This document shows positions 11,895-26,423 of a DNA stretch of 26,423 nucleotides, in pieces; positions within the stretch are counted from its first letter, which is position 1; every line of letters starts with the position of its first letter. The position numbers and the translations under genes are program-made. The DNA is from a virus. The DNA lies in the IMG/VR virus record IMGVR_UViG_3300027329_000055, positions 1-26,423 of that record; one strand, written 5' to 3'. The notes beneath the pieces are model-generated. The model was not told where the DNA came from and did no database searches. It saw nothing but the letters and a program-made list of their open reading frames with translations.

Positions 11895-12118
11895 CTGCGT
11901 CGCTCGGCAACGCGGAAGGACTCAAAGAACCGCCGCAGAGCGAACGATCGGAGCAGGCTGACGATCGTGAATATCCCGCCCATAGCAAGATTTTGTCCCA
12001 ACGTCGTTTGCAGCCCAAAGATCGGAAAGATCAGTATCTGCGTCAGAACCGCGACGCCATAGCCGACGACCACGTTGGTGATGGCCTCAACCATCGACAT
12101 GAGACGGGACTGTTTCAT
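11891..12118 (-). CDS. DUF7220 family small membrane protein
   Basis: 75 residues from ATG 12118, which overlaps the methyltransferase stop as ATGA. It has two predicted membrane segments (about residues 11-32 and 42-57), a short basic N-terminus (MKQSRLMS) and a strongly basic C-terminal tail (RRFFESFRVAERRS), so the loops probably face the cytoplasm. I recognise the DUF7220 pattern of alphaproteobacterial phages. A two-TM small protein next to late genes could be a holin-like or superinfection protein, but nothing in the sequence decides this. Confidence 0.7.
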   Translation of the reverse strand: MKQSRLMSMVEAITNVVVGYGVAVLTQILIFPIFGLQTTLGQNLAMGGIFTIVSLLRSFALRRFFESFRVAERRS

Positions 12119-13347
12119 GCGGCCACACGTTTAGTTTTCAGGGCATCGAACGTCTGCTCTCCGCCGTCAAGAATGGCCTGCTTGCCTGTAAATTTCTGCC
12201 AGCGCGCAACCGCCACATCAACGTAAGCCGGATTCAACTCGATGCCGTAGCAGACGCGGCCAGTCGTCTCGGCCGCAATCAGCGTAGTTCCTGATCCCAT
12301 GAAGGGCTCATAGACTGCCTGACCCGGGCTCGAGTTGTTCAGGATCGGGCGGCGCATGCATTCCACCGGCTTCTGCGTCCCGTGGACGGTTTTCTCGTCC
12401 TGATCCTTGTTGGCAATTTGCCAGAGCGTCGTCTGCTTGCGGTCCCCGGCCCAGTGGCCCTTGCCGGATTTGCGCACGGCATACCAAGCGGGCTCGTGCT
12501 GCCAGTGGTAATCACCCCGGCTCAGGACAAGCCGATCCTTGGCCCAGATAATCTGGGACCGGATGGTGAAGCCTGCGACCTCCAAGCTTTCGGCCACTGT
12601 CGCTGCATGCAAAGCACCGTGCCAGACGTAGGCGACGTCGCCGGGGAAGAGCGCCCAGGCCTCGCGCCAGTCAGCGCGGTCGTCATTCAGCACCTTGCCC
12701 GTGCGTTTGGTCTTGGCCGCGCCCGCCTGGTTGCGCCAGCTGGGATCGTATTCCACACCGTACGGTGGATCGCTGACAAGCAACAGCGGCTTTACGCCGT
12801 TCAGCACTCTCTCGACATCCGTGGCCACGGTGCTGTCGCCGCAGAGCAGCCGATGGTTACCAAGGATCCAGAGATCGCCCGGGCGGCTGATCGGATCCTC
12901 GGGGGGGTCTGGAACATCGTCCTCACCCTCCTGCGGGCCGGCGCGGTCCTCGAGGCTGTTCATCAGCGCGTTCAATTCGTCGTCTGTGAAGCCCGTCAGC
13001 CCGAGGTCAAAATCCGCCTCAAGCAGATCCGCCAGTTCGAGGTTCAGAAGGTCTTTGTCCCACTCGGCGTTTTCGCTGGAACGGTTGTCCATGATCCGGA
13101 AGGCCCGCGCCTGGGACGTCGTCAGCCCTTTGGCCACATGCACCGGCGCAGTCTTGAACCCGAGCTTGCGCGCCGCTTCCAGCCGCGTGTGCCCGGCGAG
13201 AACCACCATCGCCTCGTCGACAACGATAGGCTGGCGCCACCCGAATTCCTGGATCGACGCCGCGACCGTCGCAATCGCCTGCTCGTTCCGGCGCGGGTTG
13301 CGCGCATAGGGAATGATCTGCTCGAGCGGCAGGTCGACGACGTCCAT
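12115..13347 (-). CDS. ParB-domain DNA methyltransferase (N6-adenine or N4-cytosine)
   Basis: 410 residues from ATG 13347, with AAGGA upstream. Residues 1-110 are a ParB/Srx-like nuclease-fold domain with the box GHTRLEAAR at 52-60. Residues ~155-400 are an amino-methyltransferase: DPPY at 193-196 (motif IV) precedes FMGSGTT at 349-355 (SAM-binding motif I), the beta-class order. An acidic linker (QEGEDDVPDPPEDP) separates the domains. It modifies phage or host DNA, probably to protect it from restriction; the target site cannot be read from sequence. No partner restriction endonuclease is adjacent, so this looks like an orphan methylase. A 419-bp gap upstream likely holds its promoter. Confidence 0.85.
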   Translation of the reverse strand: MDVVDLPLEQIIPYARNPRRNEQAIATVAASIQEFGWRQPIVVDEAMVVLAGHTRLEAARKLGFKTAPVHVAKGLTTSQARAFRIMDNRSSENAEWDKDLLNLELADLLEADFDLGLTGFTDDELNALMNSLEDRAGPQEGEDDVPDPPEDPISRPGDLWILGNHRLLCGDSTVATDVERVLNGVKPLLLVSDPPYGVEYDPSWRNQAGAAKTKRTGKVLNDDRADWREAWALFPGDVAYVWHGALHAATVAESLEVAGFTIRSQIIWAKDRLVLSRGDYHWQHEPAWYAVRKSGKGHWAGDRKQTTLWQIANKDQDEKTVHGTQKPVECMRRPILNNSSPGQAVYEPFMGSGTTLIAAETTGRVCYGIELNPAYVDVAVARWQKFTGKQAILDGGEQTFDALKTKRVAA

Positions 13348-14346: not shown

Positions 14347-14879
14347 GCCACACCTCCCCGGGTGTCTAGGGCCCAGTGCAGGATGGCGATCGCATCGGCC
14401 TCGTTGTCGTCCGCCGGGCAGTAGCCGCGGGCACGTGCCGAGGCGATCATGGCCTCTTTGGGAGCATTGCCGCGGCCAGTGGCATGGCGTTTGATCGTGC
14501 CCACCGGCACTCCCTCGTAGGGAGTGCCGCGCAATTCGCCCCAACTGGTCAGTGAGGCCATCAGCCCACCGTAGACATGGGCCGCGTCAGTGCCTGCGTG
14601 GCGGCGCACTTCCTCAAACCAAATCGCCGAGATTGGCCCGGACAACCTATCGAGTTCTGTCAGCCAGTTCGTGAAACGCAAAAAGCGCATGCCGCCGCCG
14701 TCATAGCGGCCGGGCTTAAACGATGCGGTGCCACTGGTGATCAGGCCGTCGAAGCCACGAAGCGCCCAGCCAGTAGTGGTGCCGAGATCAAGTGCAAGGA
14801 TCGTGCGTGCCGGTTCGGACCGTGACGGCGTTTTCAGGGTTGCATCAGGATTGACGCTAGGGAGAGTCGGGTCAGCCAT
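14343..14879 (-). CDS. RuvC-like Holliday junction resolvase
   Basis: 178 residues from ATG 14879 (MADPTLPSVN); the frame extends upstream through the hairpin region, but with no homologous sequence. The RNase H-like/RuvC fold is visible: 'ILALDLGTTTGWAL' with Asp31, 'AIWFEE' with Glu89/Glu90, and 'DDNEADAIAILHWAL' with Asp162. These acidic residues bind the metals of phage RuvC-type nucleases. It would resolve recombination or replication branches before packaging. It follows a 337-bp gap rich in hairpins, so it may be read from its own promoter or be modulated there. Confidence 0.8.
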   Translation of the reverse strand: MADPTLPSVNPDATLKTPSRSEPARTILALDLGTTTGWALRGFDGLITSGTASFKPGRYDGGGMRFLRFTNWLTELDRLSGPISAIWFEEVRRHAGTDAAHVYGGLMASLTSWGELRGTPYEGVPVGTIKRHATGRGNAPKEAMIASARARGYCPADDNEADAIAILHWALDTRGGVA

Positions 14880-15216
14880 GTGCGGCCTCCTCTTCTGGTT
14901 GGCTGCTCGGGTGGAAGACGACGGCGGTTGATGCTTGGCGGTACCGGCCGCCGTCGTCGGATCAGAATGCAATCCGCACCAAGTGGTGGCCCCCGCGATT
15001 GGGCCTGACGCACGGGAGGAGAGGCCAACCCCAGGGGGTGGCCTCCCCATACGTAGTATGGGGGTTTAGCACCTAACTGCTCCTGAACGGCCAATATACT
15101 GAAATCATTACAAAAAATGACTTCAGGAAGTCTTCGGCTATGACATAGGCGCCAAAGACATATCATATGGTAACACATTGATTTTATTGAGCTCACACAT
15201 ACCGATGTCATATGAG
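14880..15216. other. 337-bp gap in the early operon; hairpins, possible origin
   Basis: No supported gene. The left half is GC-rich with two adjacent inverted repeats (15022-15063). The right half (about 15060-15215) is clearly AT-richer, with GACTTC-AG-GAAGTC near 15120, several CATATG steps and a further inverted repeat at its edge. It follows the primase-helicase gene. Candidate roles are a phage replication origin, a terminator plus promoter, or both. No clear iterated repeats (iterons) are seen. Confidence 0.45.
15022..15063. repeat. Two adjacent inverted repeats
   Basis: First, AGGCCA-A-CCCC / GGGG-G-TGGCCT with centre at 15033 (one mismatch in 11 bp). Second, immediately after, CCCCATAC-GTA-GTATGGGG (15045-15063), perfect over 8 bp. 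Both could form RNA hairpins upstream of the RuvC-like gene on the minus strand. Neither is followed by a U-run on that strand. Confidence 0.65.
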
Positions 15217-15234
15217 TTAGGCCTCACTCATATG
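15209..15234. repeat. Perfect 9-bp inverted repeat over the primase-helicase stop
   Basis: CATATGAGT (15209-15217) and ACTCATATG (15226-15234) flank an 8-bp spacer and straddle the stop codon (TAA at 15219-15217) of the leftward primase-helicase gene. The arms are AT-rich and not followed by a T-run, so a protein-binding or origin element is as likely as a terminator. Confidence 0.6.
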
Positions 15235-17538
15235 AGATGGGTCGTCTTCAGCACCCTCCGGGTAGACCCAGACAGTGGGGTTTTCGACCTGCAGCGAGAC
15301 CCCGGATTGGGGGCATTTGAAGTGGCTCGGCAGCACCGGGCGGGCCTTTGTGGTGATCTCCCCAGTGATCGGATCGACATGGTCGATGGGCGTGCCGAAC
15401 TGCATGCCTTCGACGCAGAGGTAGCCAAATCGTGACCGGGTCATGGGGTAACCAAACTCGGACGGATCGCGCAGGAATTTCACGAAACCTTTGGTTGCCA
15501 GCACGCTGAGGCGCTCGCGGATGGTGTGCTTGCTGCCCAGACCGCTCTGGTTCTCGAAGCTCTCAGCGAACTGCGTTCCGGTGTAGAGGCGTTCGCTGGC
15601 AGCTTCATCGAGCAACATGCCTAGGATGACGTCGTGCTTGCGCAGGCGTTCGGCATCGAAGCGTGCGCCCACTTCCTTCCGCACCAGGCGTTCGTTCATC
15701 GGGTTCAATTCGACCCATTCACCATTTACCTTGTCGATGAGCTTGCCTGGTAGCGCGGGGCCGTTCCTAAGCTCGATTTCCAGCCGACGTGCGCTGCTCT
15801 CCTCCTCCGGCCGATGCATAAGAAGCCCGGAGGTGTAGAAGCCCCGAAGCGCACTTGCGCCCGAGAGCGCAAGGAAAGGGTCTTCCTTCACCTGTGTCTT
15901 CGACGCTTTCCGGGTGTGGTGGGCGAGAATGATGCCGGCGTCCGGATTGACAGCCTCGCGCAGGGGCTCCACCCTGTCCCTCAGGAAGAACATCATGGCG
16001 GTGTTGTCGTTCTCACCGCCCCCCTCAGGGCCGCCATCGAAGATATTGCGTATCGGGTCGATGACAATGACGTCAGGCGGCGCCTCTGGAAAGGCGGCCC
16101 GGATAGCATCGGCCACACGGGCGACGCCCTCTGCATCAAGCAGGATTTTCAGCTTTGGCGTGGCGATGAAGGTATCGCGCGCAGCGGTAATGACGGCGGC
16201 CGGCAGCGCTATCTGGCGTATGCGCTCGCGCAGGTAGTGATACTGGATTTCGGCCTGAAGGTAGAAAACGCGCAGCGGTTGGGGCGGCGTGAAGCCGAGG
16301 AACGGCACGCCAGCAGCCATGTGCACGAGCCAGGAAATCAGGAAATCGCTCTTGCCCACCTTGGGTGCGCCGCCGAGCACAAGAAGACCGCCAGGCGTCA
16401 GAACACGTGGCCCAATGATGTCCTCGGGCATCGGGCTGGTATCATCCAGCAGTGCACCTAGACTGAAGGCCGGCAATGGCCCGGCAGGTGTATCCGCACG
16501 GGGCAGTCGCAGGAGCGGTGGGCCGTTTCTTTTGACATGTAGCGCCCAGAGACGCTCGGACTCGGCCTGCAGTCGGTCCAGCGGCCAGGACGGGCGCAGC
16601 ATGGCAGCGTTGTAGCCGCAGATGGCTTCCCAGCCTTCCAGCGGATCCAAGCGGCCTTCATGGACCAGACGAACATAATGTCCGATAGCAGCGCTGGCGC
16701 CTTGAAATCGTGACCAGTCGTCAGCAGCGCCCTCCCGGACCGGCGTCGTCAACACGGCCTCTAGTGTGGGTTTGGAGGGCACAGATGTGGTATCGCTCGC
16801 GAAGCCCACACCAGGCAGCGGCGGCATTTCGGCGACCCGTTCGGCCAAATCCGAAAGCTCAATCTCGACGTCGCGATGTTCGCGGATCTGCACGAGGCGC
16901 TGGTGCCCGTGCTTATGATAAACTGTGCCTGGGACCCGGATCGGCTGGTGCGCTGAGCGAAAATGGGTATCGCCACCAACCTTTACGGCGATGTCGCCCC
17001 GCAAACGGCACAGGGTGACGAGGTCCTCGCCCTCCACCGGCTCTGTCAATTTCCACCACACATGAAGCTTGGCCGCCCCTTCAGGCGTGCGGCCGCCACT
17101 TTCAATCAAGAGGGTGGGCGTTCCGAGGTGGCGGGTAACATGCTCGAGCTTGGCGGGAATGTCGCCAGCATCGAGGTCAACAATAATGGCCTGCATCTGC
17201 AGAACATCTGCGGCACGGGCCTGTCCCTGCTCGGCAACTGTGCCCGGGATAACATAGACAGCCGCGCCCTCGCGGTTTGCCCAGGCAGCGAAGGTTGCGA
17301 GTTTTTCGGGCGCGGTGTCGTCGGCCGAGATCCAGATGTTATGCGGTTTGCCATCCCGGCCTTGCCCTTTGTCGACAAAGCCCCTCAGCGGGATGAGCCC
17401 CTCACACCAGCTAAACACCGTGTCGAGGAAGATGGCGACCTGCTCTGGTTCGGGATCGCAGCCAAAGGGGTTACCAGACGGTGGGCCGTCGTTGAAGTCC
17501 ATCCACGGGTTGAAATGCAGGATGCTGTCGTCGCTCAT
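15217..17538 (-). CDS. Primase-helicase: AEP/RepB-like primase plus RepA-like ATPase
   Basis: 773 residues from ATG 17538 (ATGA overlap with the nuclease gene). Residues ~30-240 look like an archaeo-eukaryotic-type (RepB-like) primase: 'AIIVDLD' with D121/D123, 'KLHVWW' with H159, and 'PIRVPGTVYHK' near 199-209, the three catalytic motifs. Residues ~355-600 are a RecA-fold ATPase: Walker A GGAPKVGKS (389-397), Walker B VIVID (490-494) and 'ILAHHTRK' (537-544), as in hexameric RepA/DnaB-type helicases. The C-terminus (~635-700) resembles a winged helix. It would prime and unwind phage DNA, probably being the core replication protein. No separate DNA polymerase is in the window. Confidence 0.8.
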   Translation of the reverse strand: MSDDSILHFNPWMDFNDGPPSGNPFGCDPEPEQVAIFLDTVFSWCEGLIPLRGFVDKGQGRDGKPHNIWISADDTAPEKLATFAAWANREGAAVYVIPGTVAEQGQARAADVLQMQAIIVDLDAGDIPAKLEHVTRHLGTPTLLIESGGRTPEGAAKLHVWWKLTEPVEGEDLVTLCRLRGDIAVKVGGDTHFRSAHQPIRVPGTVYHKHGHQRLVQIREHRDVEIELSDLAERVAEMPPLPGVGFASDTTSVPSKPTLEAVLTTPVREGAADDWSRFQGASAAIGHYVRLVHEGRLDPLEGWEAICGYNAAMLRPSWPLDRLQAESERLWALHVKRNGPPLLRLPRADTPAGPLPAFSLGALLDDTSPMPEDIIGPRVLTPGGLLVLGGAPKVGKSDFLISWLVHMAAGVPFLGFTPPQPLRVFYLQAEIQYHYLRERIRQIALPAAVITAARDTFIATPKLKILLDAEGVARVADAIRAAFPEAPPDVIVIDPIRNIFDGGPEGGGENDNTAMMFFLRDRVEPLREAVNPDAGIILAHHTRKASKTQVKEDPFLALSGASALRGFYTSGLLMHRPEEESSARRLEIELRNGPALPGKLIDKVNGEWVELNPMNERLVRKEVGARFDAERLRKHDVILGMLLDEAASERLYTGTQFAESFENQSGLGSKHTIRERLSVLATKGFVKFLRDPSEFGYPMTRSRFGYLCVEGMQFGTPIDHVDPITGEITTKARPVLPSHFKCPQSGVSLQVENPTVWVYPEGAEDDPSHMSEA

Positions 17539-22319: not shown

Positions 22320-23042
22320 TCAGGGGATGTCTGCGAGGGCGTCGCGCAGTTTGCGAAGCGCACGTTGGTAGCGTTTGCGAGCAGCGGCCTCAGTCAGGCC
22401 CAGCTCAACACCAGCTTCGACTTGCGAATAGCCCTCGATGGCAACGCGGATCACCAGAAGCGCATCCGCGCCGAGCAGTTTGTGCAGATGGCCAGGGAGA
22501 GCCGCGTCCTCGGGCAGCGATTGCAGTCCGAGTTCGTGGGCGGAGACTTCATCAGGCGCGATGTCGCTGCCAAGTTTAGCCCGCCCAGCTTCGCGGTTGC
22601 GTGCCCGGATCATATCCCGTTCGACGTTCCGCAAAACCGTGGCGGCAACCCAGTTGACGCGGCCCAGATCCAGGCTGCGCAAAACGTCAACGGTTCGCGC
22701 CAAGACGTCGGAGGCGATTTCATCGATGGTGCCCAGCTTGCGCCAGATAGACCGCCGCCGGATCGCATCGAGCCCTGGCCAGAGCGCCAACAACAGGAAC
22801 GTCAGCGCCGTATCGGCGGAAGGATCATCAGCTTGCGCCGCTTCAATCAAAGCGACGAGGATGCGGTTTTTCGCATCGCCGTCACACGTTTTGCGGTGCA
22901 ACGCGTCAAGCAATGATGCCGGATCGCGGTAGGGTTTCAGCGAGGCCTGCGAACGCCGGATGGCATCGAAGCCACGCTGAAAACTGAACGTAGTAGAAGA
23001 AACCGTGATCTGATCACGGATCTCGTGCCATGCGAGACACAT
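22320..23042 (-). CDS. Sigma-70-like regulator
   Basis: 240 residues; ATG 23042 is the only start, because an in-frame TAA lies 12 nt upstream. The C-terminus is a sigma region 4-type helix-turn-helix: 'LLVIRVAIEGYSQVEAG' followed by 'LGLTEAAARKRYQRALRKLR' (about 195-233), with the usual EGYSQxE and RxxRALRKLR signature. Residues ~78-150 resemble region 2 (helical, ending 'WVAATVLRNVERDMIR'). The N-terminal 75 residues are helical and family-specific. It could direct RNA polymerase to phage promoters. The start codon directly abuts a hairpin that contains the ribosome binding site. Confidence 0.6.
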   Translation of the reverse strand: MCLAWHEIRDQITVSSTTFSFQRGFDAIRRSQASLKPYRDPASLLDALHRKTCDGDAKNRILVALIEAAQADDPSADTALTFLLLALWPGLDAIRRRSIWRKLGTIDEIASDVLARTVDVLRSLDLGRVNWVAATVLRNVERDMIRARNREAGRAKLGSDIAPDEVSAHELGLQSLPEDAALPGHLHKLLGADALLVIRVAIEGYSQVEAGVELGLTEAAARKRYQRALRKLRDALADIP

Positions 23043-23071
23043 TGGACGCCTGCCTTACGGCCAGGCGTCCA
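23043..23071 (-). promoter_or_regulatory. Hairpin covering the ribosome binding site of the sigma-like gene
   Basis: Perfect 10-bp arms TGGACGCCTG (23043-23052) and CAGGCGTCCA (23062-23071) flank a 9-nt loop. In the leftward mRNA the 3' arm ends on the base before the AUG at 23042. The only Shine-Dalgarno-like bases (AAGG in the loop, AGG in the 3' arm) are inside it, so folding should block initiation. There is no U-run, so it is not a terminator. Confidence 0.7.
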
Positions 23072-23158
23072 GCGCCTTCTCGTGGCCAGGTCAGGACGTC
23101 ATGCGTCTCTAGGTTTAGAGGGAATGTTCTGGGCTGCTGAGCGTCGGTAAGCGCGCGC

Positions 23159-23395
23159 CTAGCCGCTGTTGCGCAGGTTCAGCCGAGTGCAACCGGGACA
23201 CCTTGCCGTCACCGGAAAGCTCGCAAAAAGCTCGAAGGGCTTACGAAGGATGTGCATTTGTCCACCCTTGGCCTTTCCAAGAAGTTTGCCACAGTGGTCG
23301 CACCGCCATTCAGCGTTGCTGGAAACTTCGGTGGCGTGATGGCCGTGGCGTTGGCCGCAGCCGCTAACCTTTCTGCCGGTGTCGTCGAACATCAT
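23159..23395 (-). CDS. Com-like zinc-ribbon protein
   Basis: 78 residues from ATG 23395 (or 77 from the adjacent ATG), with a very strong AAAGGAGG ribosome binding site. Two CxxC knuckles, C32/C35 (RCDHCGKLLGKA) and C66/C69 (ARCPGCTRLN), with the flanking 'CGKLL' and 'RCPxCxxLN', match the Com family. In phage Mu, Com is an RNA-binding zinc protein that activates translation of mom by opening an RNA hairpin. Here the next gene, 117 bp on, is the sigma-like one with a hairpin at its start. A further Cys/His group (C13, H17, H19, H20) precedes the domain. Confidence 0.65.
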   Translation of the reverse strand: MMFDDTGRKVSGCGQRHGHHATEVSSNAEWRCDHCGKLLGKAKGGQMHILRKPFELFASFPVTARCPGCTRLNLRNSG

Positions 23396-24652: not shown

Positions 24653-25104
24653 CCACACATGAACCAATCCTGGCGCGTTTGGCTGCCTTGAAATCCATGT
24701 CTGTCAATGAACTAAAGACCGAATGGCAGGCGCTGTTTGATGCGCCCGCCCCGAACAACAGCCGCACGTTCCTAGAAAGCCGTTCGGCCTATCGGATCCA
24801 GGAACTGATCTATGGCGGCCCGGACAAGCAAACCCGCCGGCTGCTGGACCTGCTGGCCGACGAAGTAGAAGGCACACTGAAGCGTAAGGCCCAGATTGCC
24901 GATCCCCGTAACCCCGTGGTGGGCACCAAGTTGATCCGCGAATGGGATGGTGTCGCCCACACTGTTACCGTGCTGAAGGACGGCTTCGATTGGGGCGGGC
25001 AGCGCTACAAATCGCTCTCGGCTGTTGCCCGCGCCATCACCGGCACACGCTGGAACGGCTATCGCTTCTTCGGGCTGCGAGAGATGAAACGAGGTGAAGC
25101 ATGA
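24649..25104 (+). CDS. DUF2924 domain protein
   Basis: 151 residues from ATG 24649. Begins 'ARLAALKSMSVNELKTEWQALF', contains 'LESRSAYRIQELIYGG' in the middle, and ends with a beta-rich domain 'GTKLIREWDGVAHTVTVLKDGFDWGGQRYKSLS' (two parts) and 'ARAITGTRWNGYRFFGL', the DUF2924 signature. Overlaps the recombinase start as ATGA. The C-terminal SWIB/RNA- or DNA-binding-looking module suggests a recombination directionality factor or accessory, but this is inference from gene order. Confidence 0.85.
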   Translation: MTTHEPILARLAALKSMSVNELKTEWQALFDAPAPNNSRTFLESRSAYRIQELIYGGPDKQTRRLLDLLADEVEGTLKRKAQIADPRNPVVGTKLIREWDGVAHTVTVLKDGFDWGGQRYKSLSAVARAITGTRWNGYRFFGLREMKRGEA

Positions 25105-26423
25105 AAGATCATGTGACAAAACCCGCCCGCCGCCTGCGCTGCGCCATCTACACCCGCAAATCGAGCGAGGAAGGCCTCGAGCAAGAGTTCAACTCGCTCC
25201 ACGCGCAGCGGGAGGCTTGCGAGGCCTATATCGCGAGCCAGAAATCCGAAGGCTGGGCCTTGGTTCGCGATCAATATGATGATGGCGGCATCTCAGGTGG
25301 CACATTGGAGCGCCCTGGGCTGAAGCAGTTGCTGGCCGACATTGAAGACGGGTTGGTGGATGTGGTTGTCGTCTACAAGATTGACCGTCTGTCGCGCTCT
25401 CTGATGGACTTTTCCAAGCTAGTGGAGGTCTTTGATCGCAACGGGGTTACCTTCGTCTCGGTGACGCAGTCCTTCAATACGACCACCTCGATGGGACGAC
25501 TGACGCTGAATATCCTGCTCAGCTTCGCCCAGTTCGAGCGTGAGGTCACCGCCGAGCGCATCCGTGACAAGGTGAAGGCCTCGCGCATGAAAGGCATGTG
25601 GATGGGAGGCTATGTGCCCCTGGGCTATAATGTCGTCGACCGCAAGCTGGTAGTGAACGAAGAGGAAGCCGCCAAGGTCCGCATGGTGTTTGAGCGTTTT
25701 GTTGAGGTAGGCTCTGCCACCGTTCTGGCCCGCGAACTGCGCAACGATGGGTTCCGCAGCAAACAAGGCGCGCTGATCGATAAGGGCTACCTCTACCGCC
25801 TGCTGAACAACCGCGTCTATCGCGGTGAAGCCGTTCACAAAGGAGAGGCATACGCTGGAGAACACGAGGCCATCATCGACAATCGCCTGTGGGAGCAGGT
25901 GCATGACATCATGGGCGAAAGCCCTCGAAAGCGGGCAAACAACACTCGGACGCAAACGTCCGCATTGTTGAAGGGGCTTCTCTTCACTGCAACGGGTGCG
26001 GCCATGACACCATCCAGCACCAAGAAGGGTAGCCGAAGATATCGGTACTATGTGTCGATGGACCTTCTAAAGAACCGCGAAACGCCTGAAGATGGCATTC
26101 CTCGCCGCCTCCCTGCTGATATTGCCGAGGCGGCGGTGGTTGCCGAAATCCGCAGGGTGCTGCGGACACCAGAAACCGCAGCCTACGTTATCGCTGCATT
26201 GGGCCGGGATGACATTCAAGAGGCTGATGCAATCGCAGCACTAAGGGACTTTCCAGAGCTGTGGACGCAGCTGTTCCCGGTTGAACAGGCGCGCATCATT
26301 CAGTTGCTTGTACGGCGTGTCACAGTGACCGCAGAGGGGCTCGTCATCGACCTGCGTACTGACGGCATCGCGGGCGTCATGCGCGAAATGATGACCCCAC
26401 GACAGCTTGAGGCGGCAGAGTAA
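25101..26423 (+). CDS. Large serine recombinase (integrase)
   Basis: 440 residues, complete, with TAA as the last codon in the window. The N-terminal resolvase domain has YTRKSSEEG with probable nucleophile Ser21, 'YKIDRLSRS' near residue 93 and 'FAQFEREVTAERIRDK' near 140-155. The recombinase domain follows (~165-260; 'GYVPLGYNVV', 'LYRLLNNRVYRGE'). The zinc ribbon region, 'LLKGLLFTATGAAMTPSSTK', keeps the shape but lacks the usual CxxC. No long C-terminal coiled coil of the phiC31 type is evident. It would integrate or excise the prophage; the attachment site is probably just beyond the right edge or in the 24.0-24.4 kb gap. Confidence 0.9.
   Translation: MKDHVTKPARRLRCAIYTRKSSEEGLEQEFNSLHAQREACEAYIASQKSEGWALVRDQYDDGGISGGTLERPGLKQLLADIEDGLVDVVVVYKIDRLSRSLMDFSKLVEVFDRNGVTFVSVTQSFNTTTSMGRLTLNILLSFAQFEREVTAERIRDKVKASRMKGMWMGGYVPLGYNVVDRKLVVNEEEAAKVRMVFERFVEVGSATVLARELRNDGFRSKQGALIDKGYLYRLLNNRVYRGEAVHKGEAYAGEHEAIIDNRLWEQVHDIMGESPRKRANNTRTQTSALLKGLLFTATGAAMTPSSTKKGSRRYRYYVSMDLLKNRETPEDGIPRRLPADIAEAAVVAEIRRVLRTPETAAYVIAALGRDDIQEADAIAALRDFPELWTQLFPVEQARIIQLLVRRVTVTAEGLVIDLRTDGIAGVMREMMTPRQLEAAE

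Follow-up and report, generated by a model that had tools for sequence, protein, structure and literature searches.

The Com protein has been studied as a curiosity of phage Mu that controls a single DNA-modifying enzyme. In the named phages examined, the targets of Com are mom or DNA methyltransferases. The Com of Haemophilus recognizes CC(N)2-3GAG, with a footprint that covers the GA and the first C of the loop, and its site lies in a short hairpin adjoining the start-codon hairpin of mom (PMC6483171); as of that account, no structure of Com with RNA had been solved. In Mu, the Com site CCUGCGAG lies at -27 before mom. The Mu-like phages JD024, Chuche, and UMP151 have CC(N)3GAG at -29, -30, and -32 ahead of their Mom-like or methylase genes. 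The locus described here has a comparable anatomy before a gene of another class, and is probably (about two chances in three) a translational switch of the com-mom type with a phage sigma factor as its target.

The DNA analyzed, referred to as the window, is the 26.4-kb virus record IMGVR_UViG_3300027329_000055. Structural phage genes lie at low coordinates, replication and recombination genes at ∼15-24 kb, almost all of them in minus-strand orientation; 25101-26423 encodes a serine recombinase. The com-like gene (23159-23395) and the sigma gene (22320-23042) stand in tandem on the minus strand, with com ending 116 nt upstream of its neighbor. A sequence-only reading had placed a Com-like ORF, a hairpin, and a sigma-like ORF here, and its coordinates were correct when checked against the ORFs and the sequence. 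The 67 nt preceding the sigma gene (23043-23109, minus strand, -67 to -1) form a near-invariant leader, delimited by its identity to other lineages and their consensus. Two hairpins were recognized on this strand: H2, which abuts the sigma start codon (apical stem, 23043-23071), and H1 just upstream of it (23111-23092), which the sequence-only reading had missed. The ORF at 12115-13347 reads by eye as a ParB-like and DNA methylase protein; it has no linkage to the com-like gene, even though DNA modification genes are what Com controls elsewhere.

The upstream gene is assigned from its ORF, zinc knuckles, profile matches, and strong Shine-Dalgarno sequence, AAAGGAGGG. The 78-residue product (RCDHCGKLLG...ARCPGCTRLN) carries RCxxC...CxxC. 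Its similarity to Com is below the Pfam cutoff, PF10122 giving 16.3 bits on the protein and 21.4 bits on the best relative against a threshold of 22.9. A PHROG profile annotated as translational regulator (phrog_6417) matches at E 0.005. When the profile of the Com-like lineages was aligned by hhalign with Com of Mu, JD024, Chuche, and UMP151, the result was 96.3% with E 2e-9, over 36 columns at 39% identity that cover both zinc knuckles; the motifs RCxxCxKLL and CxxCxxLN are common to both sides. The Com-type zinc ribbon claimed earlier thus stands on the cysteine motif and this profile homology, and the protein is, judged by alignment, a homolog of the Mu Com group. Searches of named phages by tblastn with the Com-like and sigma proteins gave no usable match, and Foldseek with the Com-like model gave weak zinc-ribbon matches only. 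Across the alignment RC..C and C..C are invariant, except in L288 and L289, which have CxxxxC. The com gene of L283/L284 (upstream of 3001) has a shortened first zinc knuckle, reading WRCCCGALLG in L238, on the same contig as L283, versus WRCCRCGALLG in L286; this is possibly a degraded Com before an intact leader.

The sigma-like ORF (minus strand, 240 aa) matches Sigma70_r4 (PF04545) with 25.6 bits, above the Pfam cutoff of 24.1. The ECF-type model TIGR02937 matches residues 104-236 at E 1e-5, under its curated cutoff, and the relative L010 at E 1e-8, where a score of 34.8 is likewise below the cutoff of 42.9. The sigma profile matches Mycobacterium tuberculosis SigL in the PDB at E 4e-6. 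A structure model with a mean pLDDT of 82 gave, among the best PDB matches listed by Foldseek, sigma factors and a few integrative models, the best at a modest E 1e-3. Regions 2 and 4 occupy about residues 104-236 and are preceded by an extra helical part of ∼100 aa. The presence of both regions, together with the above-cutoff Pfam match, confirms the earlier description of a sigma-70-like gene, and the product is predicted from sequence and model to be an ECF-like sigma factor that presumably directs promoter choice. A start codon further upstream is excluded by an in-frame TAA in the window-type H2 loop.

The two genes and the leader travel together. Of the 130 loci whose upstream DNA is long enough, 129 have a Com-like ORF that stops 94-116 nt short of the sigma start; in the remaining one (L133), the com region is replaced. 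A hairpin-pattern scan of viral contigs, pooled with the earlier loci, yielded 269 places, and wherever the available DNA allows a judgment, a sigma-like ORF follows the hairpin. Four of the 269 first seemed to lack Com and resolved into two diverged Com genes, one replaced region, and one broken Com. In 346 Rhodobacterales genomes, the 27 strong matches to a covariance model of the leader fell in 25 genomes, and an independent search with the Com-like profile found 27 places in the identical 25. No strong leader match was seen apart from a com-sigma pair in the 346 genomes, a few having a truncated sigma gene or a contig end, and no Com-like gene lacked the leader. Four weak leader-model matches (L300, L301, L324, and L325) were judged to be chance. 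A survey of 399 genomes across the phylum returned matches only in four already known alphaproteobacteria. As read from these searches, the com-leader-sigma arrangement is present in hundreds of alphaproteobacterial prophages.

Individual loci show what is kept when the rest diverges. In the most divergent lineage, L288/L289, in which the L288 sigma protein is 36% identical, Com, H1, H2, and a start directly after H2 are all retained. The Com of this lineage, with its CxxxxC second knuckle, looks nearer to Mu Com, and its H1 loop (CAAAGA, CAAUGA) has one extra base, as in Mu. Com is missing from L133 (Antarctobacter heliothermus, upstream of 5973), although both the leader and the sigma gene are intact; the replacement DNA, read from its translation, may encode an integrase-like protein. 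Decaying copies also occur, with a Com lacking one zinc cysteine and a broken sigma frame in L219 (∼1194, minus strand) and truncated sigma ORFs in L310 and L312. The genes upstream differ by lineage and include a DnaD-like gene and genes for a ∼677-aa and a ∼406-aa protein.

Homologs were collected via the sigma protein, so the leader itself was not selected for. Between the window and six other lineages (L144, L009, L010, L016, L063, and L081), whose sigma proteins are about 65-75% identical, identity over the 67 nt before the ATG is 91-94%, against 47-60% just upstream, 49-57% in the com region, and 64-75% in the sigma gene. The leader is hence more conserved than either adjoining gene, and the DNA flanking it is at background on both sides. 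Early sigma codons are unusually fixed, with codons 6-8 showing no synonymous differences wherever the residue is shared. Rfam holds nothing at gathering score for the leader, with a single chance match at E 0.76. RNAalifold finds the H1 core and H2 unaided in sets of 30 and 24 diverse leaders. Over the 24 leaders, 92.1% of cells pair, and the covariation score of 0.094 compares with 0.058 in shuffled alignments (0/500) and exceeds all slid controls, a statistic to be read with the relatedness of the leaders in mind.

H2 (23071-23043, 29 nt) is a perfect 10-bp stem with loop GCCGUAAGG, for which an alternative of 9+3 bp with a GUAA tetraloop can be drawn; its consensus is GGACGCC-YG-GCC-GNAA-GGC-W-GGCGUCC. 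The fold has -22.4 kcal/mol and a z of -5.9, none of 200 shuffles being as stable, and the surrounding 151-nt region has a z of -4.1. The 3′ end lies one base before the sigma ATG at 23042, and the only Shine-Dalgarno-like bases of the sigma gene (AAGG, AGG) sit inside the hairpin, unlike those of com. Sequence and fold therefore bear out the earlier observation of a perfect 10-bp stem that adjoins the AUG and contains the sole Shine-Dalgarno bases. Perfect stems of at least 10 bp with a short loop occur at three sites in the window (14505, 15208, and 23043), whereas shuffled windows average 0.6; the other two inverted repeats span 14505-14530 and 15208-15235. Such a stem is scarce but not unique by sequence alone, and it is conservation that lifts H2 above chance.

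H2 is retained in all lineages. At the N of its GNRA loop U, C, A, and G all occur, with ACAA and UGAA as rare exceptions, while 7 of the 12 pairs never vary in the 24 leaders. The second pair changes from G-C to U-A in L144 and L319, which are far apart on the sigma tree, and is broken in L167, L289, L322, and L323. In the window's minimum free energy fold, the start codon is partly paired (GCG with UGU) within a longer stem (23027-23086, minus strand) that joins the UG of AUG to GCG at 23075-23073 and codons 2-6 to the 5′ flank; this extended stem is the predicted optimum in the window and most relatives. With codons 2-7, the stem had p 0.13 in a swap control, and the synonymous-codon test was mixed, with a z of +1.35 for the window, +1.2 and +2.2 for L288 and L289, and values below -1 for 13 of 20. 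For the window, a helix with the first sigma codons is unsupported and not established. H2 was also rejected as an intrinsic terminator, no U-run following it. A palindrome, CCGTGATCAGATCACGG followed by TTTCTTCT (23019-23003, within sigma codons 8-16), looks terminator-like; as a terminator it was dismissed, being absent outside the window's lineage.

H1 reads UAG-A-GACG[CAUGA]CGUC-CUG in the window (minus strand) and CAG-A-GACG[CNNGA]CGUC-CUG in most relatives, and is delineated by RNAalifold, pair changes, and loop conservation. Of 93 haplotypes, 92 have a C(N)2-3GA loop: CGCGA occurs 74 times, CAUGA 7, CACGA 6, and CGUGA 2, with CGAGA, CAAAGA, CAAUGA, and the sole exception, CGCGG, once each; L322 adds CCCGA. 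Of the 24 leaders, 15 have A-U and 7 have G-C at the pair 23106-23096, which is shifted in the two sequences with an N3 loop. On the sigma tree this pair changed three times, at least two changes being forced by well-supported branches, which points to at least two, and probably three, independent compensatory changes. Stem covariation, which the sequence-only reading had proposed as a check, is therefore seen in H1 and in outer pairs of H2; double changes in the 10-bp stem are few, because that stem hardly varies.

The H1 loop agrees with the Com core C(N)2-3GA and is thus a candidate Com site. Because the comparison involves only three loop positions, and further hairpins were inspected as well, the match is a strong lead and not proof, and the H1 loop is closed by G-C where the SELEX motif of Haemophilus Com has an invariant C-G. 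A first candidate, CC-AC-GAG at 23085-23079 beside H2, was dropped because, unlike the H1 loop, it varies freely (GAA, CCG, CAA, AAC).

These features suggest the following order of events. Com and sigma would probably share one transcript, from which Com would be translated at once, its strong ribosome site being visible in the sequence. H2 is predicted to mask the sigma start region and the only Shine-Dalgarno-like bases, which would keep initiation low. The Com-like protein may then bind the C(N)2-3GA loop of H1, as Com of Mu and Haemophilus suggests, and the bound protein would open or remodel H2, as in Mu, so that sigma is made. Sigma would steer the host RNA polymerase to phage promoters, presumably those of later genes, and may in this way provide the two-step timing switch that the sequence-only reading proposed. 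Com-type translational control, as the sequence-only reading proposed it, is on anatomy and comparison well supported, by the Com homology, the one-to-one linkage, the RNA-like pattern of change, and the H1 loop. We infer from the Mu analogy that this control is activation, a sign that the present evidence does not distinguish from repression.

The likeliest alternative, though unlikely in itself, is that the Com-like protein represses translation, clamping the leader to prevent sigma synthesis until the protein is titrated or degraded. Linkage and leader conservation are compatible with either sign. H2 is about three times as stable as the start-codon hairpin of Mu (-6.8 kcal/mol), so opening it would need more than local binding, and a bound protein could instead stabilize a hairpin this strong. 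A repressor nevertheless seems unnecessary where H2 alone already buries the start region; moreover, Mu Com activates (PMC6483171), and the position of H1 beside a start-codon hairpin repeats the order in Mu.

Less probable is a leader that acts as DNA (a replication origin, or an operator or promoter amid replication genes), the hairpins being by-products of inverted repeats, which are common at such sites. The leader does lie in the replication module of the window, behind an O-like (DnaD_N) gene. Yet the upstream genes are specific to the lineage, which led to the rejection of an origin, and the change pattern is RNA-like, with GNRA and C(N)2-3GA loops and compensatory changes; both points make a DNA role less likely. 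Near-fixed spacing to ATG, GTG, or TTG is a sign of translation, and the element was not found away from the sigma gene. The lowest probability falls to an element that works without Com, whether protein-independent or through a host factor (RNA thermometer, RNase III site, or ribosome standby site), or as an autoregulatory site of sigma, with Com acting elsewhere. The contact between Com and RNA is here drawn from analogy, and H2 is more nearly invariant than base pairing requires. Because most of its pairs never vary, its sequence could also reflect recognition by a protein or as DNA. Such an element would leave two observations unaccounted for, namely that the Com-like gene never occurs without the leader in the 346 genomes and that the H1 loop matches the Com core.

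The broader proposal, rated at somewhat better than even odds, is of an uncatalogued, widespread RNA switch in which a Com-type protein opens a near-invariant leader and turns on translation of a phage sigma factor in alphaproteobacterial prophages, by a C(N)2-3GA code shared with Mu mom. If true, Com would represent a general class of phage translational activators and not an accessory of mom. If Com-type proteins gate sigma, a phage transcription program would be set by a protein-RNA translation switch, a layer of control rarely sought in prophages. The leader, absent from Rfam and highly conserved, is a ready test object, and the natural H1 loops (CGCGA, CAUGA, CACGA, CGUGA, CCCGA, CAAAGA, and CAAUGA) provide a series for studying how Com reads RNA.

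Mu had already revealed both the protein family and the principle. This class of target, the family of leaders, and their spread among alphaproteobacterial prophages were not found in the literature searched. No report linking Com to a sigma factor was found, most subscription journals lying outside the scope of the search, and a literature match to 'Com family' concerns competence proteins. Likewise, the literature searched held no report of a phage ECF-like sigma factor with a structured leader and a zinc-ribbon partner. The present sigma protein resembles phage ECF-like sigma factors (PHROG 1740; TIGR02937) in regions 2 and 4 and in its sigma fold, and differs from them in the ∼100-aa N-terminal part, the structured leader, and the zinc-ribbon partner. 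The com-methyltransferase pairs of JD024, Chuche, and UMP151 likewise have Com upstream of a single target gene, but their targets are Mom-like or DNA methylase genes, and these pairs have no sequence in common with the present leader. The closest comparison is with com-mom of Mu (PMC6483171). In contrast with Mu, the target is sigma-like instead of a DNA modification enzyme, the two genes do not overlap, the leader measures about 67 nt and its start-codon hairpin is far more stable, the Com-like protein has an insert of ∼14 residues between its zinc knuckles, and the H1 loop is closed by G-C instead of the C-G of the Com site. As in Mu, a small four-cysteine zinc protein is encoded just upstream of the target, the start codon is predicted to be bound in a hairpin, and 5′ of it lies a predicted short hairpin whose loop is C(N)2-3GA.
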